Shown here piece by piece: positions 3,101 to 32,667 of a stretch of DNA of 38,789 nucleotides. A program made the position numbers and the translations under genes. The stretch spans positions 1 to 38,789 of the IMG/VR virus record IMGVR_UViG_3300025687_000014; one strand, given 5' to 3'. The notes below the pieces were generated by a model. The model was not told the DNA's origin. It did no database searches and was given only the letters and a program-made list of their open reading frames with translations. The stretch is from a virus. Each line of letters starts with the position of its first letter. Position 1 is the stretch's first letter.

Positions 3101-4407
3101 CACGAGATGCTATTGCGTCTGGTGTGCTTGGACTCAGTAGCGCGTGGATTGGGTACATGCTTATGAAGGGTCAGTCTGAAGGCTGGTCTCTGGAGCGTAC
3201 TCAGCGCGAGATTGCAGACACGTTCAACCCGAACAGTGGCAAGTTCATGGTTACTGAGATCGAAGGACAAATGGTTGGACCTGGTTCCAAGTTGATCTCT
3301 GACCTGAAATTCATAGCGCGGATTATGGGCAATCCAGCAGCGTTACTAGACGCTCACCCAGAGCGCAATCCGTTCATTCGCTGGGCAAGAAGCCAGTCTT
3401 CATTCGCTCTTGGCACTGCAACTGACATTCTTTCTGGTCGTGACGTTGTTGGAAATGTAACTAGACCTGGCGCACCAGCATTCGGCGGTGACGACCCCGA
3501 TGTATCTGACGGATTGATGGGTCTTGTACGTGAGATTTCCGGTCTAGGAATCATGTTGTGGTTCCAGTCTGCATTGTTCGAGGGCGGTTCTGCTAAACAG
3601 CGCACAATCCGTGCTGGTGCTGACTTCCTTGGTGCGCGTGCCTACGAGCAAGGTCGCTCACAGATTCTCGATGATGCCTCATGGCAGGCACTGAATAAGC
3701 CGTGGGACGACCTGAACCAGCTAGAGAAGTTCAACCTGCAAGAAAACCCTGAACTAAAACAGACTCTCCACGACCTTGATGAAGCACGCGCTGATTCAGG
3801 TGACAAGTTTGCTGACTACCGCATCAGGCGTTCCGGTTCGGAAGAGGCACAGCGACAGTTTCAGCAAGATGACCTTGATGCGTTCATTGTTGATTTGTAC
3901 TCTATGAAGAGCGCAAACGATACATGGAGAGTGGTGAGCAAACTGTCAGACCGAATATCGGACACTAAGGGCAACCTGTACGCTAACCTTGCTGGATTCA
4001 GAGAAGGCTCTGGCATCTCCAATTACGTTGGAGAAGAGCCAAAGAATGACTTCGACCGAATGTTGAACGAGTGGTATGACCTTATAGACGAGCATACCCA
4101 GAAAACGAAAATTGGCGAAAACGAATTCAAGGGCAGATTGATATTTGACACATGGGTTCCTGCCGCAGATAAGTTTATCGAGGGTCTTTCCCCAGAACTG
4201 CAACAGCAACTTGAAGAGTGGCGTGCGCGTAAAGAAGACATCGAAGGCGTAAAGGAACTATTAGAGTTGCGATCACCAATAGGCGTAAAGCCAGATGGCT
4301 CTCCACGGCACAGGACAAGCAAAGAAATGCTACCTGAAGTTACGAGAATACTTGATAAAATCGGAATCACAAACGAGTATGTTCAGGGACTAAGGGCGTC
4401 TCAATGA
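1..4407 (+). CDS. Giant putative DNA-ejection/internal virion protein, 3' part
   Basis: Main part of a 1552-residue protein whose start lies at 38411. Sequence alone gives no enzymatic motif I can defend. The N-terminal third is charged and helical. Around full-length residues 505-590 there is a Pro/Ala-rich linker. Beyond residue 1000 come long Ala/Arg-rich helices, a hydrophobic stretch near residue 1120 (window base about 3110), and a segment around bases 3360-3450 with Phe-Ile-Arg-Trp, Ser-Ser-Phe and Asp-Ile-Leu-Ser-Gly-Arg-Asp. That segment resembles the C-terminal part of large polyvalent phage proteins. Its place between portal and scaffold, its size, and the absence of a tape measure fit an internal protein injected with DNA in podoviruses, like T7 gp16 in role. 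The stop overlaps the next start (ATGA). Function is inferred from size and context. Confidence 0.6.
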   Translation, partial: GAMQRAETFFNETPLGQGLLGAGRFGQEFTESGMFGAGGIARQTGRLLPEEFLGREPILLTQRETEFDRIFQEARNSGMALDEAFRTAHEALPQRQIPIGQEETGREGFAGFIQALGNQLAGFRGATTGEQRPLFEVGERDLALAAIDPLNVAPVVGDVGLITRPLSAARRGAAEVVEGTLRRGEQAAEAIGRTGVGNVLDPVPARQVVARAARAADDVPPSINRRVNPATIDPRDATFDEITEAIEIASGDERRRLVSILGSDEEAARFERLDRMQDSVDEARAARASAELDEMLTEEQERLIGGHVSQPEVTEEALKDLQSSASFAFEEDAGLLITVLANRMGKLSPEKIQRLLSQTRQEAIRNPDVTHFVAAREATTGLRNLGLSNDQIFEGVVSKLRADGIDDADIDVLIGEFIGGRTAQTPPTTAIQPPVSVARAAADAPPPRVPDEVTRIADEPIEAVPREPVDLPSDAAGRIPPRVPSPADDFVRPSGGDFPPLQDLETQLQVAFNPNVARRVGEVASSLIVPKPLTGFDPSLTATTPGQRAAIGYANLLEEGNLKSDRIFSYANEIGDRQSLFGSDLDLQTGLFRQGDFAGLSLNEIREQMANPAFARKLNPEQTEYLNRLGELDEKATELYERSGKVIGRTEDDDILFGSRRVFAKIDPETGEIIRAEPVPTDRPVAGKVSSEQARRVRTAEQLREQGFVLLPYDETVRLKIRQAYRVAAEAELDKWVRANYEFKEVVDARTFKEAQTRLYKGQLPTTTEGERFVNDLSKALDNLQASAPQGKTRLAIDTVNQVGRTAALSGDASIFLIQFLLAMGKDFLPVTAQAGLRNIRPKVPGALFGTTAKNFGTQLVRGFVSPARARRFNAELLQNNRQLLGDTRSLIMFGTEAAPEITEGVSKVRNIADYLEAKGGIRAAAGRTVRTLARPLDSFQQATATAMNAAGIHMLKSLKPLTRNADGSIDPQRLQDVEDFINNFRGITSSARLGVSPKRRWQEGLVALAARYRRATAALYTSAAQGGLRGQLARDAIASGVLGLSSAWIGYMLMKGQSEGWSLERTQREIADTFNPNSGKFMVTEIEGQMVGPGSKLISDLKFIARIMGNPAALLDAHPERNPFIRWARSQSSFALGTATDILSGRDVVGNVTRPGAPAFGGDDPDVSDGLMGLVREISGLGIMLWFQSALFEGGSAKQRTIRAGADFLGARAYEQGRSQILDDASWQALNKPWDDLNQLEKFNLQENPELKQTLHDLDEARADSGDKFADYRIRRSGSEEAQRQFQQDDLDAFIVDLYSMKSANDTWRVVSKLSDRISDTKGNLYANLAGFREGSGISNYVGEEPKNDFDRMLNEWYDLIDEHTQKTKIGENEFKGRLIFDTWVPAADKFIEGLSPELQQQLEEWRARKEDIEGVKELLELRSPIGVKPDGSPRHRTSKEMLPEVTRILDKIGITNEYVQGLRASQ

Positions 4408-20735: not shown

Positions 20736-21599
20736 ATGTCAGCCTCGTGGTACGACCGAGGTTATAGTGTTGGACAAAGATGGCGGTGGACGCTTTTACT
20801 AGCGACTGCCGCTTTCTTTATTGGCGCACTTTCAACCTTCTACTGGCACAACGAAGTCTTCGGGTTTCTTCTCGCCCCCGCTGACAACAAGTTGTCTCCG
20901 TTCGATGGCAAGCCGATTGTCACTGCTCCGACTACTATGTTCGGGGCTACTCTTAGCCTTGCTGTACTTGGCGGGAAACTACTTGCGTTTCCGTTTATCT
21001 TCGTTGGTGCGCTCAGTCTTCTGAAACCGCTTGCCCCTCGTGACTGGTGGCGCAGGTTCGTGGCAATCAACGCTGTGGTAGCACTGTTCCTGTTCATCTT
21101 GGGTGACGTGTTCGTGTACTACGTGATGATGCCAGTCAGCATGAGGTTCTTACTGTCGTTCGGCACAGACATCGTTGAACCAGTCATTACCCTCAACGCC
21201 TACATGGAGTTGCTGTTCGCTCTGTTCAAGTGGATTGGAATTGTGTTTATGATTCCGCTGTTTATGAACGTGTTAGCAAGAATGGGGTGGCTGTCTTACG
21301 AGCGAGCCAGGGGGTTCTACAGGGTTGGGTTCTTGTTGACAGCGTTCTTCTCTGCATTGATCTCTCCAGGGTTAGACCCAACGCTGACCGTTATGGTTGC
21401 CGTGCCAATGTATGCACTGTACCTAGTAGGACTGGGTTCTGTGTGGGCGATAGACCCATCAGCAGGGAACTATCTGTGGGTAAAGACCTTTGACGGTTGG
21501 AGAGAGGCTGTCTGGAGCAAGTGGCTACGTTTCTGGAGACTGCCCGAACGCCTTGGCTACTGGTTGGCAGACAAGATTGCCAATGTATTCTCACGATGA
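20736..21599 (+). CDS. tatC: TatC-like twin-arginine translocase subunit
   Basis: 287 residues with about six membrane spans. TatC landmarks in order: IVTAPTTMFG (61-70), a hydrophobic helix with Pro86, the loop at 98-107, GDVFVYYVMMP (123-133), Tyr156, FMIPL (171-175), RARGFYRVG (190-198), ISPGLDPT (209-216, with the conserved Asp214) and VAVPMYALYL (221-230). Cellular TatC passes folded proteins carrying twin-arginine signals. Here residues needed for signal-peptide binding appear lost: Glu of the Phe-Glu-x-Pro motif is Met172, and the N-terminal His-Leu-x-Glu-Leu-Arg is missing. The C-terminus is about 40 residues longer than usual, with a Trp/Arg-rich tail. It may modify host export, anchor an envelope complex or serve lysis. 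Fold assignment is strong, activity open. Confidence 0.85.
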   Translation: MSASWYDRGYSVGQRWRWTLLLATAAFFIGALSTFYWHNEVFGFLLAPADNKLSPFDGKPIVTAPTTMFGATLSLAVLGGKLLAFPFIFVGALSLLKPLAPRDWWRRFVAINAVVALFLFILGDVFVYYVMMPVSMRFLLSFGTDIVEPVITLNAYMELLFALFKWIGIVFMIPLFMNVLARMGWLSYERARGFYRVGFLLTAFFSALISPGLDPTLTVMVAVPMYALYLVGLGSVWAIDPSAGNYLWVKTFDGWREAVWSKWLRFWRLPERLGYWLADKIANVFSR

Positions 21600-21892: not shown

Positions 21893-21941
21893 AGAAAACC
21901 CCTCGGAGCGCGGATTGGAGATGACGCTGCTCAACGAGGGG
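21893..21941 (-). terminator. Terminator of the leftward early operon
   Basis: CCCCTCG (21899-21905) pairs with CGAGGGG (21935-21941), GAGC with GCTC and GCG with CGC, giving 14 pairs with two small bulges and a 12-base loop. Read leftward, the stem is followed by TTTTCTG. It lies 68 bases after the RusA gene, between converging transcripts. Confidence 0.75.
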
Positions 21942-22008
21942 CTTCCAAATACGTACGCCCCGTCCTACAAAGGCGCACACCAACAGAGTACCACGGCTTA
22001 CGTTTCCC

Positions 22009-24985: not shown

Positions 24986-25402
24986 TTACATCGCCCTCTC
25001 TTGCTTGATGGGTTCTACTTTGATCTCAGGCTTCTGCGGAATCAGTGTTGACTCCAGCTTCTCAGTAATCTCGTCGCCCATCTTCCACAGTTGCATTGCC
25101 TTGCGCCCGTCAACCTTGGCTTTCACCACTTTGACTTCCTCGTGTTCGGGTATCAGGCATTCCTCGATGATCTCTGGGTGAGTCTCACCGAATGCTGCAA
25201 GGAACTTGTTTGCGTCGTACTGCCGCTTCGTAGGAATCGTGCTGGTGAACTTAGTAGTTCGCAGTAACTCCTGATTGTTGTGCTGCATGTACGACCAAAT
25301 GATTGCGAGCATCGTGTCGCGCTCGTCGAACATGACCTTCAAGCCTTCAGTTATGTTGTGATAACGCTCGACTGCTTCTTCGATACTGATGTCGTTATTC
25401 AT
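24986..25402 (-). CDS. Hypothetical early protein
   Basis: 138 residues, helical and charged, with a basic C-terminus. First gene after promoter A; ATG 25402 is preceded by the start-associated sequence (GATTGGAGAA at 25408-25417). Context before an SSB-like gene suggests a recombination or replication role, for example a nuclease inhibitor or annealing helper, but no motif supports this. Confidence 0.65.
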   Translation of the reverse strand: MNNDISIEEAVERYHNITEGLKVMFDERDTMLAIIWSYMQHNNQELLRTTKFTSTIPTKRQYDANKFLAAFGETHPEIIEECLIPEHEEVKVVKAKVDGRKAMQLWKMGDEITEKLESTLIPQKPEIKVEPIKQERAM

Positions 25403-25433
25403 CCAGATTCTCCAATCTTGTTATCTGTTGCCC

Positions 25434-25462
25434 AGCATACAGTTATGCTTGCGGGGAGTCAA
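25434..25462 (-). promoter_or_regulatory. Leftward promoter A with palindromic operator
   Basis: Read leftward: TTGACT (25462-25457), 17 bases, TATGCT (25439-25434). The palindrome GCATA-CAGT-TATGC (25435-25448) covers the -10 and part of the spacer, an ideal place for repression. The first gene starts about 32 bases downstream of the -10. Confidence 0.8.
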
Positions 25463-25467
25463 TATAG

Positions 25468-25863
25468 TTAGTCGTGTGTGCATCGGCAGGTCTTGCATTC
25501 TGGGTAGTGGATGCCGTGTTGAAGGGTTGAGTGATCTACCCATCCGGTCATCACGTACCAGATTTTCTTTCCGTCCCTGGTTGGTCGTGGAATTACTGCG
25601 CCTGCATCACGTAGATCGGACACTACCGCTGAGAAGTTGAGCGGTCTGCCAATGGCTTCCCAGATGTCCGTTCTCTCGTGTGGTTGTCCGTCTTTCATGT
25701 AATTGAACAGGCGTACACGTTGCCCTTTCCATCGAGCAAAGTCTTCTGGCTCTGGAATCCACTGTCTCAGGTTGACTTGTTCTTTCCCGCAGACACAGCG
25801 AAGTGTGTTCTGGTAATCGACCTTCCACTGTTCGCGAAAGTCTTCGCACTTATGGTTACTCAT
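25468..25863 (-). CDS. Zinc-containing winged-helix-like protein
   Basis: 131 residues from ATG 25863, overlapping the previous stop (ATGA). Two cysteine pairs near the ends (CVCG near 23-26, CKTCRCTHD at the end) and a central region (RVRLFNYMKDGQPHERTDIWEAIG...FSAVVSDLRDAGAVI) that looks like a winged-helix DNA-binding unit. It might regulate transcription or bind DNA during replication. Function not established. Confidence 0.6.
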   Translation of the reverse strand: MSNHKCEDFREQWKVDYQNTLRCVCGKEQVNLRQWIPEPEDFARWKGQRVRLFNYMKDGQPHERTDIWEAIGRPLNFSAVVSDLRDAGAVIPRPTRDGKKIWYVMTGWVDHSTLQHGIHYPECKTCRCTHD

Positions 25864-26225
25864 CGTGCTTTCTCCATTGGCACTGTGATGTAGCGAGGTC
25901 TGCGCCCGCATTCACGGCAACGTATCGGGTCATCTCGGTCACCCTCGGTGTCTAGGTAAAGCGGGAACGGTCGAGAGCACTTAGGGCAAGCCTTCAGTCT
26001 GTCCCAGTCTTCCAGTTGCACCGTGTCCACTTGCGGGTCGTTAATCATTCGCTGAACCAAGTTCCTTTCCCTGAACGGGTCACGATGTAACGCTGACCTG
26101 CACATCCTGCACTCGAAATATTCAACTTGCTTTCCGCTCCGTAACGTGCGTGTGCGGGAGTAACTGTTCTCTGGTGTGCGTGGGTGTCCTCTACGACAGA
26201 GTGCCACTTGTTCCTGTGTTGTCAT
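25860..26225 (-). CDS. Double zinc-ribbon protein
   Basis: 121 residues. ATG 26225 is chosen because the start-associated sequence with GGAG lies six bases upstream. First unit: CRRGHPRTPENSY with CRMCR (a pattern common in actinophage zinc proteins). Second unit: CPKCSRPFPL with CRECGRR. It has no HNH triad. It overlaps the end of the HTH gene by 35 bases. Confidence 0.7.
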   Translation of the reverse strand: MTTQEQVALCRRGHPRTPENSYSRTRTLRSGKQVEYFECRMCRSALHRDPFRERNLVQRMINDPQVDTVQLEDWDRLKACPKCSRPFPLYLDTEGDRDDPIRCRECGRRPRYITVPMEKAR

Positions 26226-26448
26226 TAGATTCTCCAATCTTTTGTAGTTGCCTGTTCAGCTTCTTCTCGTACTTATCCAACTTCTCTGCTGCCATTAGTG
26301 ACGGCGTGCTGGCTATGTTGGCTTCGGGCGGTGCTAACCAGTTGTCTACGGTTGGCTTGGATACGCCGACTGCCTTGGCGAACTTTGCCCTGGATAGCCC
26401 TGCTTGCTTGAAGAGAGCGGTTACTGTTGCTCGGTTCCATTTAGTCAT
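26191..26448 (-). CDS. Xre/Cro-like helix-turn-helix regulator
   Basis: 85 residues. Residues 5-40 form a five-helix Xre-type HTH start: VTALFKQAGLSRAKFAKAVG followed by VSKPTVDNWLAP. The C-terminal half is a helical, charged part that could dimerise. A small cytoplasmic DNA-binding protein of this type is the natural candidate to bind the four palindromic operators of the early promoters. Direct evidence is lacking. Confidence 0.75.
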   Translation of the reverse strand: MTKWNRATVTALFKQAGLSRAKFAKAVGVSKPTVDNWLAPPEANIASTPSLMAAEKLDKYEKKLNRQLQKIGESNDNTGTSGTLS

Positions 26449-26565
26449 CTAGTTCTCTCTTTCTACGTCACGCAGGTATTCAGCATGGTCAACCATTCGT
26501 TCGATGCAGTCTTCACACCGGCACTCGTCTGCGCCAATGAGTTCTGCTTGGCATTCATAGGGCAT
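26449..26565 (-). CDS. Tiny cysteine-rich zinc protein
   Basis: 38 residues: ECQAELIGADECRCEDCIER supplies four cysteines for one zinc site, followed by a helix. Its start overlaps the previous stop (TGATG), and its stop is directly next to the HTH start (TAGATG). Confidence 0.6.
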   Translation of the reverse strand: MPYECQAELIGADECRCEDCIERMVDHAEYLRDVEREN

Positions 26566-26882
26566 CACTCACCCCCTGCTGTCGGCTGGAACTTGCCACG
26601 CTCTAACGTGTAGTCAGACCAGCCTTCGTGACCCATTACAGGCGTGTGGTGAATACCGCACTTTTGATTACCGGGATGATCGTCAAAGCAAGCCAACAAA
26701 GCAGCGGAACACATGCCCTCGATAATCTTGTCGAGTTCGTCGGCTGCGTACTTCAAGCCCTCGTCCGTGCCATTACGAAATACGTCTCCGTAAGTTTTGT
26801 ACTCGCCATTCCACTGGGCAGCCTCAGCACGCAGCCTGTCTCGCAGTTCTTCTAGTGGGCTAGTCATCTTGGTGTCGGTCAT
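26565..26882 (-). CDS. Hypothetical early protein
   Basis: 105 residues; helical first half (LEELRDRLRAEAAQWNGEY, GLKYAADELDKIIEGM) and a Cys/His-containing second half. ATG 26882 overlaps the previous stop (ATGA). No family recognised. Confidence 0.6.
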   Translation of the reverse strand: MTDTKMTSPLEELRDRLRAEAAQWNGEYKTYGDVFRNGTDEGLKYAADELDKIIEGMCSAALLACFDDHPGNQKCGIHHTPVMGHEGWSDYTLERGKFQPTAGGE

Positions 26883-27043
26883 TTGGTTTCTCGCTTACTT
26901 AGGCGGTAGTGCACAAACGCACCAGACATATGCCCAACAAAGAACCCAAAACTACTTGCGTTTGCGTGTTCTGAGCCAAAGATAGTTCCGCCAATAGCAC
27001 TACCGACGACAACGATTGCTAGCCAAATTAGAATGCCACCCAT
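26879..27043 (-). CDS. Small two-span membrane protein
   Basis: 54 residues: MGGILIWLAIVVVGSAIGGT, a short loop, then SSFGFFVGHMSGAFVHY and a basic tail. Both ends overlap neighbouring genes (TGATG and ATGA), which supports it as real. A holin-like role is possible in shape, but it lies in the early operon. Confidence 0.6.
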   Translation of the reverse strand: MGGILIWLAIVVVGSAIGGTIFGSEHANASSFGFFVGHMSGAFVHYRLSKRETK

Positions 27044-27276
27044 CACTCACGCTCCTGCAAAGTCTCAGCATCGACGTAAACGTAGTCCTCGTGTTCCGTC
27101 TTCGGGTCTTCAAACTTCAACTCTGCTTCGATCATGCCCTTGTAAAGCCCGCTACCCTTGGCGTACAGAGCGTTCACTGTTCCGCCTGGGTATTCGTCGT
27201 GGTCGTACTGTTTGCCGACCTCTACGGTCAACTCGTATGGTGTGCCACCGTCGTAGGTGACTGCTGTGATAGTCAT
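27043..27276 (-). CDS. Hypothetical acidic early protein
   Basis: 77 residues from ATG 27276, which follows two GGAG sites and a variant start-associated sequence (27284-27293). It is a beta-type, acidic protein (ITAVTYDGGTPYELTVEVG, IEAELKFEDPKTEHEDYVYV). First gene after promoter B. No family recognised. Confidence 0.65.
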   Translation of the reverse strand: MTITAVTYDGGTPYELTVEVGKQYDHDEYPGGTVNALYAKGSGLYKGMIEAELKFEDPKTEHEDYVYVDAETLQERE

Positions 27277-27303
27277 TCTCCAGTCCTCCAATCTGTTTTC
27301 ACT

Positions 27304-27333
27304 AGGGTATGCATAACAGTATGCGGTTGTCAA
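27304..27333 (-). promoter_or_regulatory. Leftward promoter B with palindromic operator
   Basis: Read leftward: TTGACA (27333-27328), 18 bases, TACCCT (27309-27304). The palindrome GCATA-ACAG-TATGC lies in the spacer (27311-27324). It drives the genes from 27276 leftward. Confidence 0.65.
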
Positions 27334-27353
27334 CCCTTAGTTGTCACGTTCAG

Positions 27354-27382
27354 TTGCGTTCCCTCGTGGTTGTCTGTATATT
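27354..27382 (+). promoter_or_regulatory. Rightward promoter into the gene-free region
   Basis: TTGCGT (27354-27359), 17 bases, TATATT (27377-27382). It points opposite to all neighbouring genes, and no protein start follows within 600 bases, which suggests a non-coding transcript beginning near 27389. Confidence 0.6.
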
Positions 27383-27388
27383 TTTAGG

Positions 27389-27500
27389 GTCGAATGAGTA
27401 GAGTTGATGCGTAAATATTTTGTAGCCCCTCTCAGATGTGGACAAAATGCGCACCAGCTATTTGTTCGACACCACAACTGACGAGGGGTTATTTATTTAA
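27389..27500 (+). ncRNA. Candidate small RNA ending in a long hairpin
   Basis: Predicted from promoter 27354-27382 to the U-rich end after the hairpin. Hairpin arms: AGCCCCTC (27424-27431) with GAGGGGTT (27483-27490), TCAG/CTGA, TGTGG/CCACA and ACAAA/TTTGT, about 22 pairs, a six-base bulge (27466-27471) and a 14-base loop. TTATTTATTTAA follows, so the structure can also end transcription. Expected length is about 110 nt. No known RNA family recognised. Confidence 0.45.
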
Positions 27501-27875
27501 CCCAGCCAACTCGTCTTCATAGGCACACATGGTGGTTCCACAACCTGTCGCAACACCAGATCAAAGGTCGGGCGTACACAGGCAAGTGGCTAAGTTCTGA
27601 TAAAAGCCACCACCAAAGCCTGCGGGCGTGTCACCAGTATTGAGAGAGTCTAGGAGATCAACCGGACGTTGGCAGAGAGTCCCTAGAACCGCGCCTCTGC
27701 GGTATACAAATCGTGGCGACCCTTTTCTTTTTCTTTCTTTTGCTGGTTTTCTTTCTGTTTTCTTTTCAGAAGTGGAGAGAAGCGACCCACCTTAAGAAGT
27801 ATCTGGAACGAAGTGGATAGATACATGCCAGTAAACTGAGTCAACTAGAGAACGGAGTAACCCGTTAACCAGTAA

Positions 27876-27913
27876 GCCCCCGCAGCGGTAAACGAGTACC
27901 GGACTACGGGGGC
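27876..27913 (-). terminator. Hairpin after the methyltransferase operon
   Basis: GCCCCCG (27876-27882) pairs with CGGGGGC (27907-27913), with an inner CGGT/ACCG pair. It lies 23 bases downstream of the leftward methyltransferase gene. It lacks a T-run, so termination is likely but not certain. Confidence 0.55.
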
Positions 27914-27936
27914 AACGGTTGGAGAACTGTGTGTGG

Positions 27937-28473
27937 TTACGTGAGGCTCATAGTTTGCTGGAGTTTGCGCTCGACGGTAACGATGGTGTCGTTGTGTCCA
28001 CCACCATGAAATACCAGTAACACTTCGATCATTTCAAAGCCTCGCTCTTTACCGAACCCTGCGCTGTTCCACCCACAACAGATCACAATTCCATTCGGCT
28101 TGATCTTCGGATGTGCCAACGTCTTGACCCTTCGATACAGTCTCCCACTCTGGGTTTCTTCCATACCGACCTTGCGACCGACATTGCTATAGACCTCTGA
28201 GATTTGGCGTGGTGAATACGGCGGGTCGAATATGAACCCGTCCAGTTCACCGTCTACTAGCGACGCTGTAAAGTCCTCTGCGTCTATGTGTGAAGTAGTC
28301 GGGGCTTCTGGGTTTAGATCGTTTGTATACGTCGCTGGACTGTTCCAGCCAGAAAACGGGTCTGCCCATATTTCACCTTTTTTCACGTACCGATTCACCA
28401 GTTCTTCAATTGGCTTTATCGTAAACGTGTGCTTACTGGGCATTGCAAACACTCTGGAAAATTGGATGCTCAC
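27937..28473 (-). CDS. DPPY-type DNA adenine methyltransferase-like protein
   Basis: 178 residues. It carries IWADPFSGWNSP (35-46, a motif I-like S-adenosylmethionine site), DPPYSP (83-88, the catalytic motif IV of N6-adenine and related amino-methyltransferases) and a C-terminal beta part (GIVICCGWNS, EVLLVFHGGGHNDTIVTVERK). It has no separate target-recognition domain, as in many small phage enzymes. Start is GTG 28473, overlapping the previous stop (TAGTG). It may protect DNA together with the 7-deazaguanine route. Confidence 0.75.
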   Translation of the reverse strand: MSIQFSRVFAMPSKHTFTIKPIEELVNRYVKKGEIWADPFSGWNSPATYTNDLNPEAPTTSHIDAEDFTASLVDGELDGFIFDPPYSPRQISEVYSNVGRKVGMEETQSGRLYRRVKTLAHPKIKPNGIVICCGWNSAGFGKERGFEMIEVLLVFHGGGHNDTIVTVERKLQQTMSLT

Positions 28474-28667
28474 TACTTCAACCCATCCAGAAACTTGCGT
28501 GCCTTAGTTACGACCGCTTCGTTGTCTAGTTCCAGTGTGCCAGCGTCGTAGTCGTCCACCAGTTGCTTGATTACTTCGGTTGCTTCGGCGAGCGTCCCAA
28601 GAATCTCAAATATGTTCACACCTTGCATTTCCAAAATCGTTTCTGCTAACTGTCTTGGTTGCGTCAT
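28473..28667 (-). CDS. Small helical early protein
   Basis: 64 residues, helical and acidic (QLAETILEMQGVNIFEILGT, ATEVIKQLVDDYDAGTL). ATG 28667 follows GGGAGAAGACTAA. Coupled to the methyltransferase. No family recognised. Confidence 0.65.
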   Translation of the reverse strand: MTQPRQLAETILEMQGVNIFEILGTLAEATEVIKQLVDDYDAGTLELDNEAVVTKARKFLDGLK

Positions 28668-28711
28668 TTAGTCTTCTCCCCTAGCACTTCTTGAGTGCTG
28701 GTGTAGTTTGC

Positions 28712-28885
28712 TTAGTTATCTTGTTCTCCCGTGTGTACGTGTTCTGTGCCTGCTGTGCAATCACATGTTGCTGATCTTTCCATGCGGTCTAGGGCTGCTG
28801 TGAGTCTGTCTGCTGCATCGTAGTCGCCAAGTGACCGAAACTCGTCTACTAGGTCACGCAGCGGTTGCAGGTTGGGGTTAGTCAT
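28712..28885 (-). CDS. Small helical early protein
   Basis: 57 residues: MTNPNLQPLRDLVDEFRSLG, then YDAADRLTAALDRMERSATC and a polar tail with CDC. Start overlaps the previous stop (ATGA). No family recognised. Confidence 0.6.
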   Translation of the reverse strand: MTNPNLQPLRDLVDEFRSLGDYDAADRLTAALDRMERSATCDCTAGTEHVHTGEQDN

Positions 28886-29073
28886 CCGTTTCGTTCTCCG
28901 TGTTTACAGCTGCCGAATTCGTAGCCGTCTGTTATGTGTTCTCCGCACGTAGCGCAGTCCGCTGGCAGTTTCCAGCCGGTGTATACGTGGTTGTAGTTCG
29001 GCGCGTGTCTACCGCAATACGTGGCGTACGTTGGTCTGCCCTGGTTGTCTGTGGTTACTTCGACGTAGAGCAT
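28882..29073 (-). CDS. Small zinc-binding protein
   Basis: 63 residues with CGRH near 20, CATCGEH near 40 and CKHG near 56: ligands for one or two zinc ions. Its ATG follows the upstream stop directly (TAGATG). Confidence 0.65.
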   Translation of the reverse strand: MLYVEVTTDNQGRPTYATYCGRHAPNYNHVYTGWKLPADCATCGEHITDGYEFGSCKHGERNG

Positions 29074-29241
29074 CTAATATTTCACGCTGTAATTACGCTT
29101 AGCTGCTGCACGCCAGTGATTAAGTCGCTGGCAGTCGTTGCAAATGTCGTTAATTGGCTTGGGCTTGCGCCAGAACTGCCACCACCGGATATTTGCGTTC
29201 CATTGGCGACGGTCTAATCGTATCCAGTAGCAATCGTGCAT
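29074..29241 (-). CDS. Small Trp/Arg-rich protein
   Basis: 55 residues from ATG 29241, preceded by AGGGGGA nine bases upstream. A longer form from ATG 29301 is possible but has no ribosome site. Contains WNANIRWWQFWRKPKP and a CNDC pair. No family recognised. Confidence 0.5.
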   Translation of the reverse strand: MHDCYWIRLDRRQWNANIRWWQFWRKPKPINDICNDCQRLNHWRAAAKRNYSVKY

Positions 29242-29309
29242 GATCGTGTTCCCCCTAGGTGGTGATACTTGTAGCAGCGGAGCATTCCACAGGTACGGCA
29301 TTTAGTCAT
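29214..29309 (-). CDS. Possible tiny zinc-ribbon peptide
   Basis: 31 residues (MTKCRTCGMLRCYKYHHLGG and onward), with CRTCG plus two further Cys and paired His. It begins with the same Met-Thr as many genes of this block and overlaps the next gene. The ribosome site (AAGAG) is weak, so it may not be translated. Confidence 0.35.
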   Translation of the reverse strand: MTKCRTCGMLRCYKYHHLGGTRSCTIATGYD

Positions 29310-29314
29310 CTTGG

Positions 29315-29512
29315 TTAACTCTTGAAGTTTCCACCGTTAGCGACTACGTGTGCCACGGTTTGCCATGCGTACTCATAGTGTTCGCCGGTTTCGATGTTTC
29401 GGACAATCGGGAAATCCATCTTTGCACCTGCGATTTGTGCCGGTTGCCCATTGAGCGTGACTGGCGTGTTAACCAGATCGTATCGTTCATCTTCTTTGAT
29501 AATGCGTTGCAT
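29315..29512 (-). CDS. Small early protein
   Basis: 65 residues, beta-type (LVNTPVTLNGQPAQIAGAKM, FPIVRNIETGEHYEYAW). The start-associated sequence (variant ATTGGAGAA, 29521-29530) precedes ATG 29512 by ten bases. It resembles small phage proteins of unknown function. Confidence 0.65.
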   Translation of the reverse strand: MQRIIKEDERYDLVNTPVTLNGQPAQIAGAKMDFPIVRNIETGEHYEYAWQTVAHVVANGGNFKS

Positions 29513-29533
29513 AACTTAGGTTCTCCAATTTCT

Positions 29534-29707
29534 CTAACTCTCGATACGGTCGATTGCGTCCTTGATGCGGTTGAGTGCGCCAGTGGTCACAATGTCATTC
29601 GGGTTTATGAAACCTCTTGCAATAGCAAAGTCAATCTGCCCGACGATCTGCTTAGACGCAGTTATCAGCGCATCGACTGCTAACTCTTGTTCGGTGTACT
29701 TAGTCAA
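29534..29707 (-). CDS. Small helical early protein (TTG start)
   Basis: 57 residues: MTKYTEQELAVDALITASKQ, then IVGQIDFAIARGFINPNDIV and a helix. TTG 29707 is supported by the start-associated sequence (29714-29723), whose GGAG lies eight bases upstream. No family recognised. Confidence 0.65.
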   Translation of the reverse strand: MTKYTEQELAVDALITASKQIVGQIDFAIARGFINPNDIVTTGALNRIKDAIDRIES

Positions 29708-29795
29708 CTTAGGTTCTCCAATCCAGTTATCAGGCTATCTAAAACGCCTGCATATGCGCCCCAGGTTCCTAGTCTGGAACGCATAAACGGGTGAG

Positions 29796-30092
29796 TTAGA
29801 ACGATTGCACTATAAAAGCGGTTCCGTCGATGTCGATAACGGTTGTTGACTGTGCCACGTCGTCGATTGATTTGTACTCGTCGCCGTAGTCCTGTTGGAA
29901 TTCTTCAATGCTTTCGTACTCTGAGAAATCAACACAGATAGCGATAACGTCGAGTTCGATTTCTTCGCCAAGAGCATTTTCCAGTTCGATTTGATCGGCG
30001 TAGAGTGCTTTTAGCCCATCATATGAGAAGTTATCAGGTCGAATCTGTCGGAAAGCGTCGATAAAGTCGGATTCGTAAACTGTCTGTTTCAT
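29796..30092 (-). CDS. Conserved acidic phage protein
   Basis: 98 residues from ATG 30092, with the start-associated sequence at 30100-30109. Very acidic: YDGLKALYADQIELENALGE, IELDVIAICVDFSEYESIEE and TTVIDIDGTAFIVQSF. This pattern belongs to a small protein common in many unrelated phages, of unknown function. The charge suggests DNA mimicry, but that is a guess. Confidence 0.75.
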   Translation of the reverse strand: MKQTVYESDFIDAFRQIRPDNFSYDGLKALYADQIELENALGEEIELDVIAICVDFSEYESIEEFQQDYGDEYKSIDDVAQSTTVIDIDGTAFIVQSF

Positions 30093-30158
30093 TTTGGGAT
30101 TCTCCAATCCGTTTAGTGGTTATCCACAGACTGCCAGTTCTCCTAGGTTGGCAGTTTC

Positions 30159-30170
30159 GCCGTATACGGC
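30159..30170. promoter_or_regulatory. 12-bp perfect palindrome, possible protein site
   Basis: GCCGTATACGGC lies between two leftward genes; beside it is a CTGCCA/TGGCAG hairpin (30131-30154). No gene fits in this 70-base gap. Either element could be a binding site or a weak terminator. Confidence 0.35.
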
Positions 30171-30182
30171 TCGTCAGTGTGG

Positions 30183-30371
30183 CTATGAAATCGAAACGAT
30201 TGTGATGTTATCGGTTAGATCGGTTCGTTCGACCTTTTCTTTTCGAGGTGTTACGTGCCTGAACTGGTCGCACCAAATGCAAATCTTGATTGTGCTGGTA
30301 GGGCGTGGTTTGTGAAACTCGTGCCGTGGGGCTTTGGGGCAGTTGTTGTAGCTAGCGTAAGGCGTAGTCAT
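30183..30371 (-). CDS. Small Cys/His-containing early protein
   Basis: 62 residues; start-associated sequence at 30380-30389 before ATG 30371. Has CPKAPRHEFH and CIWC, a possible zinc site, and a polar C-terminus. No family recognised. Confidence 0.65.
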   Translation of the reverse strand: MTTPYASYNNCPKAPRHEFHKPRPTSTIKICIWCDQFRHVTPRKEKVERTDLTDNITIVSIS

Positions 30372-30409
30372 GTTTTCAGTTCTCCAATCGTCACTTAGTA
30401 GGCTAGTTG

Positions 30410-30586
30410 TTATCCAGCGTGTATCCAGTTGCCAACGGCGTTTCCGTTGCTGTCTCGAATGATTCCAACGTATTCGCCATTGGTCACACTGTCGGCAATA
30501 CGTGCCAGAACTTCTCTAATCTCGTTCGGGTTGTCCTCAAACGCTGCGTTATCTGTCTCGATTGAGATATTAAGTGTTGTAGTCAC
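30410..30586 (-). CDS. Conserved small phage protein (GTG start)
   Basis: 58 residues: MTTTLNISIETDNAAFEDNP, EIREVLARIADSVTNGEYVG and IIRDSNGNAVGNW. The pattern of a strand with acidic Ala-Phe, then a helix with Leu-Ala, then a Gly-rich hairpin with Asp-x-Asn-Gly-Asn is recurrent in phages. GTG 30586 is set by the variant start-associated sequence (30593-30602). First gene after promoter C. Confidence 0.7.
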   Translation of the reverse strand: MTTTLNISIETDNAAFEDNPNEIREVLARIADSVTNGEYVGIIRDSNGNAVGNWIHAG

Positions 30587-30613
30587 TTTAGGAACTCCAA
30601 TCCGTTGTGTAGG

Positions 30614-30645
30614 TACATGATTGCATAGTGTTATGTAGGTGTCAA
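30614..30645 (-). promoter_or_regulatory. Leftward promoter C with palindromic operator
   Basis: Read leftward: TTGACA (30645-30640) with the operator ACATA-ACAC-TATGC (30636-30623; one mismatch to the palindrome) in the spacer. The -10 is weak (AATCAT at 17 bases). It is back to back with the rightward promoter at 30653. Confidence 0.6.
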
Positions 30646-30652
30646 GAGATAT

Positions 30653-30681
30653 TTGAGGTTTGTTGTTGAATTGGGTACGAT
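30653..30681 (+). promoter_or_regulatory. Rightward promoter for terS
   Basis: TTGAGG (30653-30658), 17 bases, TACGAT (30676-30681). It leaves a leader of about 200 bases before terS. A second candidate, TTGTTA-17-TAACCT, lies at 30805-30833. Confidence 0.5.
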
Positions 30682-30890
30682 GGTACTCAGCGGTTTAGCG
30701 TGTACCAGCAAACATGTATGGCGAGTCTGGAAGTAGCTGCTCTAGGCGATTCGACCCAATAGGGAATTGAATCTTGCGCCGGTAAACAGAAGAAACTTTC
30801 TCTTTTGTTAAGTTTTCTCTTTGAAGTTAACCTCCAGTAGCATCCGAAGTGAACTTGTGAACGCATGGAGGCACTAGGTAAACTGTCCTC

Positions 30891-31364
30891 ATGACTACCG
30901 AAACAAAGCTAACTGATAGACAACAGATGTTCGCGAAAGAGTACGCATACTCAGGTAACGGTACTCAGTCAGCAAAGAATGCAGGGTACTCAGTTAACGG
31001 TGCTCACGTTACTGCTAGCCAACTACTAACTATTCCTAAGGTTAAACAAGAGATAGCACGTATCAGAGAACTGGAAGACTCTAAGAGAACCGTTGACCAG
31101 AACTTCGTAATCCAGAGACTTATACACTTCGCGACCAACGCAGAAGTCGAGTCCAACGCAGTACGCGCAACCGAACTATTAGGTAAACATCTCCGTATGT
31201 TCGTTGACGTATCTGAGTCCACAGTTCACCACGACACACAGCCGTTACAGCCGTTCACACTAGCCGAACTACTGGCACTGCGTGAACAGGCTCTCTCTGT
31301 GGACGCGAACACCCAAGACGGAGAGTTCAAGGTTCTCCCTGAGAGTAAACCGGCAGAAGATTAG
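30891..31364 (+). CDS. terS: Terminase small subunit
   Basis: 157 residues. The N-terminal half matches the Terminase_2 small subunit: LTDRQQMFAKEYAYSGNGTQ, SAKNAGYSVNGAHVTASQLL and IPKVKQEIARIRELE, an HTH DNA-binding unit that recognises the packaging site. A helical oligomerisation part follows (NAVRATELLGKHLRMFVD), and a C-terminal tail. It is alone in its direction: its neighbours on both sides run leftward, and terL is 2.3 kb away. Confidence 0.88.
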   Translation: MTTETKLTDRQQMFAKEYAYSGNGTQSAKNAGYSVNGAHVTASQLLTIPKVKQEIARIRELEDSKRTVDQNFVIQRLIHFATNAEVESNAVRATELLGKHLRMFVDVSESTVHHDTQPLQPFTLAELLALREQALSVDANTQDGEFKVLPESKPAED

Positions 31365-32191: not shown

Positions 32192-32220
32192 ATCGTTGCA
32201 TACCGTTATGCATCTGTCAA
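32192..32220 (-). promoter_or_regulatory. Leftward promoter D with palindromic operator
   Basis: Read leftward: TTGACA (32220-32215) with the operator GCATA-ACGG-TATGC (32211-32198) in the 17-base spacer. The -10 (AACGAT, or ACGATA one base further) is weak. It drives the mini-operon 32160-31483. Confidence 0.6.
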
Positions 32221-32667
32221 CAGGTAAACGGTACGAGTTGGCTCGGATTGCGTGTGGTTGCCGTGAGGTTGGCTGGCAACCTGGCTAGCTGGTCACTGGA
32301 AGACATGGGAACGGCAGAGGACACGGCACACTGAGGACTAGGGAGACATGATGACGATGGATGGCTGTGTGTGTGTGCTGGTGGTGGTGGTGGTGTGTGT
32401 GTGTTGGTGGGCGGGTATGTCTTGGCGGATGTTGGTTGTGATGTTGTTGTTAGCCCGTAAAAATTCCGCACCTAATTTTGAGACCTCTAGTTTTCCGCTG
32501 CCTGCCCGCTGTCTGCTAGAGTTCTGTGTGACCGTCTGAGGCGTTTGTGTGTTCTCCGTGGGCATTGTCCGTGCCTGGTTCCCCAGTTTGCTGCGCCTTG
32601 GGCGGTCTCTTTGTTTGCGGGACGTGCTAATGTGAGTTCACGGGACATGAAAGAGTGGGGATTATTT
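32221..32667. other. Gap with GT-rich tract, near the terminase genes
   Basis: No confident gene in 450 bases. Bases about 32367-32460 are almost only G and T on the plus strand, including runs of (GT)n and (GGT)n. A GGTTG/CAACC hairpin lies at 32267-32281, and an extended -10 candidate (TGCTAATGT) near 32627 precedes the gene at 32668. It may be a packaging or origin site. Confidence 0.5.
32348..32539 (+). CDS. Doubtful membrane-like reading frame in the GT-rich tract
   Basis: 63 residues; the translation begins with a Cys/Val/Trp run that follows from the GT repeat itself. An AGGGAG site is near the double ATG. It could be a small membrane protein, but the composition is what a GT repeat gives in any frame. 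Confidence 0.2.
   Translation: MMTMDGCVCVLVVVVVCVCWWAGMSWRMLVVMLLLARKNSAPNFETSSFPLPARCLLEFCVTV

Follow-up and report, generated by a model that had tools for sequence, protein, structure and literature searches.

The gene-free gap of the IMG/VR virus record IMGVR_UViG_3300025687_000014 very probably harbours a genuine structured RNA, as judged from comparison with a related genome. The record was analysed over its whole length of 38,789 nucleotides (38.8 kb), which we refer to as the window. For the nature of the RNA we make a more tentative proposal, which as a whole comes close to an even chance without reaching it: a non-coding plus-strand RNA in which one helix system (P1/P1.1) would rearrange into another (P2). 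This RNA would extend from about 27389 to about 27766 (+), with about 380 nt in the window and about 270 nt in the relative L008, and its transcription would diverge from that of the leftward early genes. The two interlocking helix systems would make up the first 105 nt; comparison shows that the two genomes keep both predicted systems, with compensatory changes in P1/P1.1 and in part of P2. Because their sequences change fast, structured RNAs of uncultivated phages seldom come to notice; where one arm is rewritten and the pairing nevertheless persists, as here, very few genomes give strong evidence for RNA function.

The gap of about 660 bases is bounded by two leftward genes, one with its start at 27276 and the next with its stop at 27937, and the RNA candidate is found at its left end in rightward orientation. 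Among the listed ORFs, none of at least 50 aa overlaps 27388-27627. The genome encodes the large and the small terminase, RusA and TatC. Every match of the large terminase to a named phage is below 60% identity, the collections searched contain no close named relative of the phage group, and a BLAST search against named phages and plasmids revealed no counterpart of the RNA locus. The gene for the TatC protein translocase (20736-21599, +; PF00902, E 3e-33) is 80% identical to the copy of a relative (L095, 4795-5655); as an indicator of the host it gave distant matches only in the genome collection. The features of the gap are, in window coordinates:

27306-27333 (-): leftward divergent promoter TTGACA-18-TACCCT; the spacer contains the palindrome GCATA-N4-TATGC
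27354-27382 (+): promoter-like sequence, TTGCGT (27354-27359) and TATATT (27377-27382) with a spacer of 17
27389-27401 (+): P1 5' arm GUCGAAUGAGUAG, at the likely transcript start, pairs with 27458-27470
27408-27413 (+): P1.1 5' arm UGCGUA, pairs with 27448-27453
27423-27441 (+): P2 5' arm UAGCCCCUC-UCAG-a-UGUGG, pairs with 27472-27491
27448-27453 (+): P1.1 3' arm UGCGCA, pairs with 27408-27413
27458-27470 (+): P1 3' arm CUAUUUGUUCGAC, within the P2 hairpin loop; swapped arms fail to pair
27472-27491 (+): P2 3' arm CCACA-a-CUGA-c-GAGGGGUUA, pairs with 27423-27441; with exchanges in L008
27489-27500 (+): tail UUAUUUAUUUAA, identical in L008, overlaps the P2 foot
27514-27633 (+): stretch of about 120 bases lacking in L008, between the conserved blocks; fold z only -1.6
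27634-27722 (+): second conserved domain with hairpin ACCGC/GCGGU (AGCGC/GCGCU in L008)
27719-27767 (+): pyrimidine-rich tract, conserved in L008, probable 3' end of the RNA

L008 (from IMGVR_3300025141_000906), with about 78% DNA identity in the terminase region, is the only independent relative that was found; IMGVR_3300010296_000532 carries an identical copy of the RNA locus. Over 25378-30718, the DNA that is common to the window and L008 at 1e-10 or better is confined to 27416-27513 (82%) and 27634-27766 (85%), and the genes that flank the gap give no DNA alignment to L008 at 1e-10. The non-coding stretch is thus better conserved than the adjoining genes, which points to a function. Pattern scans of viral contigs returned only L008 and the identical copy, a search by protein neighbours gave no further relative with the RNA, and a covariance model of P2 detected L008 alone among 50 related virus records. 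Pattern matches in L096 and L097 were dismissed as chance, the remainder of the element being absent, and a weak BLAST match in G009 is a T/C-rich stretch near a gene start and not the RNA. A search for the second domain as an exact pattern was negative in the collection of genome contigs. The comparison with Rfam that the first-pass annotation had proposed was made with Rfam 15: no family matches the window at the gathering score, and relaxation to E <=5 gave only two matches, both far below threshold.

That annotation had described a hairpin of about 22 pairs with a six-base bulge within 35 bases of a predicted start, followed by a U-rich tail. Such a hairpin, P2, is indeed present at 27422-27492. 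It starts 33 bases past the likely start near 27389, has 26 pairs in its minimum-energy fold (weak apex included) and carries the six-base bulge UCGACA; the tail that follows is A/U-rich and unchanged in L008. Folding against shuffled controls gave a z of -6.4 with none of 200 shuffles as stable, and a z of -4.8 in L008. The whole interval 27354-27500 has a fold z of -3.96; its optimal fold was rejected because it uses 27361-27373, which is located 5' of the predicted start and lacks complementarity in L008. When all 1936 90-base segments on a fixed grid of both strands are ranked, 27401-27490 (+) occupies rank 18, and comparable fold energies occur elsewhere in the genome, many of them within coding regions. 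The computed fold energy by itself is suggestive only as evidence for P2, and since it is not unique in the genome, comparative evidence was sought. In L008, P2 shows a two-sided change from A-U to G-C and the one-sided changes U-A to U.G and G.U to A-U. The estimated terminator score of P2 is just below threshold (-4.0 in the window, -4.4 in L008). For comparison, a terminator-like hairpin 3' of leftward genes (CCCCTCG...CGAGGGG-TTTTC, 21897-21945, -) scores +3.3 with the same formula; its outer stem has the same sequence as that of P2.

The 5' arms of P1 and P1.1 cannot be aligned between the two genomes, yet each is complementary to its own 3' arm. In L008, P1 is formed by 3406-3416 (GUGCUAAUCAA) and 3478-3488, and P1.1 (CUGCUCUG/CAGGGCAG) is found at the corresponding place. 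Covariation in related phages, which had been named earlier as a check, is therefore present, in one independent relative only. The duplex energy of P1 and P1.1 together is -28.9 kcal/mol in the window and -28.6 kcal/mol in L008. Dinucleotide shuffles of the 5' segment are as good in 2 of 5000 (window) and 4 of 5000 cases (L008), and P1 without P1.1 is equalled in 3 of 5000 and, more weakly, in 96 of 5000, respectively; the arms were picked after inspection of the sequences, and these counts are optimistic rather than clean probabilities. The swapped-arm control is more telling than the shuffle counts: when arms are exchanged between the genomes, the energies weaken to -12.8 and -6.7, which is within the range of the shuffles.

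From 5' to 3', the arms follow each other as P1a, P1.1a, P2a, P1.1b, P1b and P2b. Because of this order P1/P1.1 and P2 interleave, the loop of P1/P1.1 containing the P2 5' arm and the loop of P2 containing the P1 3' arm. Interleaved helices as in an H-type pseudoknot are thus seen, with P1 rewritten in concert and with one two-sided change in P2, as far as two sequences can tell. The predicted pairings are compatible with an RNA that is either knotted or two-state and belongs to no known family. By a geometric estimate, P1 and P2 can coexist while P1.1 cannot be added to them, and alternative folds are therefore suggested. When increasingly long prefixes are folded, P1/P1.1 is predicted until about 95 nt; thereafter, the folds differ by at most about 4 kcal/mol, and once P2 is complete its fold is favoured in the window and the P1 fold in L008. 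In a descriptor scan for P2 with a P1-like partner over both strands, the site came first in the window (-57.4, followed by -49.4), whereas in L008 a low-complexity repeat was ahead of it and it came second.

The promoter-like sequence TTGCGT-17-TATATT, described earlier as directed into the gene-free gap, is present, and a similar sequence, TTGCTT-17-TACATT (3372-3400), occurs in L008. As a pattern it is weak, because it agrees with 8 of the 12 positions of the sigma-70 consensus, because equally good sites occur about twice per kb on the plus strand, and because a promoter scan with a threshold of 9/12 did not list it. The L008 counterpart matches at 7 of 12 positions. A sigma-70 promoter is an assumption here. 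In both genomes the P1 5' arm begins 6-7 bases past the promoter-like sequence, and the likely start (5-8 bases past TATATT, near 27389) coincides with the foot of P1. The promoter-like sequence is kept in L008 (TTGCTT-17-TACATT) with an unchanged distance to P1, and this supports its reading as a putative promoter. The leftward divergent promoter belongs to a wider pattern: palindromes GCATA-N4-TATGC, or near versions of it, flank leftward TTGAC sequences at 25436, 27312, 30624 and 32199, and L008 has a different palindrome, GTAC-N2-GTAC, in three corresponding positions (3330, 7561, 9120). The exchange suggests a repressor which may have altered its specificity.

We place the RNA on the plus strand because of the wobble pairs in P1, P1.1 and P2, which are G.U on this strand and A.C on the other. 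At least 5 pairs are G.U on the plus strand, and the duplex energy is better there in both genomes. A conserved reading frame through the hairpin, which would speak for a protein instead, was not found: stops occur in each of the six frames, in 27384-27516 as well as in its L008 counterpart. Neither is there a codon-phase bias, the substitutions being spread evenly across codon positions and the indels not occurring in threes. In the second domain a single frame is open in both genomes; most changes there alter the amino acid (our own count), and no start with a ribosome-binding site was seen for it. A small hydrophobic ORF with a GTG start at the pyrimidine-rich tract was rejected, as no ribosome-binding site was seen for it and its charged tail is not kept in L008. 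Conserved 9-mers have, apart from the locus itself, no complementary target that is common to corresponding genes of both phages; one of them, GGGGTTATT, matches both genomes, but at non-corresponding places. The previously suggested role as a regulator thus gains no support in the form of antisense action on phage genes, and none was found for a replication primer.

The first-pass annotation had proposed a discrete RNA of about 110 nt. A structured plus-strand RNA is borne out by the comparison, but its end near 27500 is unproven because conserved sequence continues to 27766. In L008 only about 30 bases separate the two conserved blocks, and 37 bases lie between the end of the tract and the stop of the leftward gene that follows. 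The pyrimidine-rich tract is the sole one of its kind found on either strand of the window. A single RNA that spans both blocks would be the simplest reading. A shorter RNA that ends just past P2 is possible, with an invariant tail and a slightly negative terminator score. The fold energy of the second domain is unremarkable (z 0.14 and -1.35), and it has one clear covarying pair. A long-range helix predicted for this domain in L008 is not claimed, as substitutions in the window break the pairing.

According to our proposal, the nascent RNA would first fold as P1/P1.1. When the P2 3' arm emerges, P2 would form and displace P1.1; the outcome would be a pseudoknot of P1 and P2 or just the P2 hairpin. 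Which fold is adopted may be set by a protein or by the speed of transcription, and could determine if polymerase stops at about 27500, near the A/U-rich tail, or continues across the second domain as far as the pyrimidine-rich tract. The termination step is weakened by P2 being below the terminator threshold in both genomes. The RNA would act by its shape, binding a protein or polymerase, and not as an antisense RNA to phage genes. It is conceivable, though we consider it doubtful, that this represents a new class of phage regulatory RNA: a 5' co-transcriptional two-state switch with both states under selection, which sets transcript length or polymerase behaviour at a divergent early control region. 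If true, the two-state reading would reveal an RNA-based control point in the early region of this phage group.

Several other explanations have to be weighed. It is rather unlikely that P1 and P2 form a stable pseudoknot which does not switch; the RNA would then be discrete, with about 110 nt, and would bind a protein of the phage or of the host, with the second domain as a separate element. P1 and P2 use different bases and could coexist if P1.1 stays open, and the U-rich tail is invariant; however, compensatory change keeps P1.1 too, the second domain follows after about 30 bases in L008, with little space for a separate promoter, and the terminator score of P2 is below threshold. We consider it improbable that the block acts as DNA, be it a replication origin, a packaging site or a regulator site. 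Its inverted repeats and regularly spaced T-runs as well as the adjoining divergent leftward promoter with its palindrome would suit such a role, which is disfavoured because of the wobble pairs; in addition, duplex energy is better on the plus strand in both genomes, and the helices are kept despite sequence change, which DNA-binding proteins do not usually need.

Antisense action in trans on host mRNAs is very improbable. Several small RNAs of phages do pair in antisense fashion (OOP, sar, c4; PMC12197685) and conserved single-stranded stretches are available, but the search of the phage genomes gave no target conserved in both, and an antisense RNA would not need the strongly kept pairing in long helices. 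The least probable case is a 5' leader of a long rightward transcript that passes the leftward genes by put-type antitermination and reaches the terminase genes at 30891. The structure is at the extreme 5' end beside the promoter, the distance to the first late genes of this strand is 3.5 kb, and a second conserved element (30718-30822) directly precedes the small terminase gene. Against such a leader stand about 3 kb of intervening opposite-strand genes and an anatomy unlike the two hairpins of put (PMC9378689). Moreover, the pyrimidine-rich tract resembles an end.

The put RNA of phage HK022 makes polymerase ignore terminators. Our candidate resembles putL and putR in being a folded RNA 3' of an early phage promoter that would act on transcription if the proposal holds. 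However, put RNA has about 70 nt and two stem-loops and is bound to polymerase (PMC9378689), whereas the candidate has interlocking P1/P2 helices and more than 100 nt; it does not show the put anatomy. OOP RNA of phage lambda (77 nt, antisense to cII; PMC12197685) is likewise a small phage RNA that is transcribed from a separate promoter within the early regulatory region and opposite to neighbouring early genes, but our RNA has a long and interlocked fold, and the search for a phage target of it was negative. The c4 RNA (Rfam RF01695), a structured and regulatory phage RNA as the candidate would be, acts by antisense pairing to ant mRNA (PMC12197685), and the candidate does not match it in Rfam even at the relaxed threshold. 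The STAXI motif is also a pseudoknotted RNA in mobile-element surroundings (the pseudoknot being one of two readings here) but consists of two or three copies of a pseudoknot (PMC2864571), whereas the candidate is single, larger and has no Rfam match. These four are the nearest known RNAs, and they differ in anatomy or mode of action.

Further elements were noticed in the surroundings. A stable hairpin at 27840-27930 (GCCCCCGCAG/CTACGGGGGC) has a low energy on either strand; no counterpart was seen in L008, where the gap ends sooner. A G/T-rich low-complexity stretch is found at matching locations (window 32220-32640, L008 9150-9780). Its repeats differ between the genomes apart from a short similar piece around TTAG..CCCG, and it may perhaps be an origin or a packaging site. 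The conserved element directly 5' of the small terminase gene (L008 7687-7797) is predicted to fold into a three-way junction in both genomes, with z values of -1.9 and 0.1 that are not unusual, and carries a pyrimidine-rich tail like that of the main RNA.
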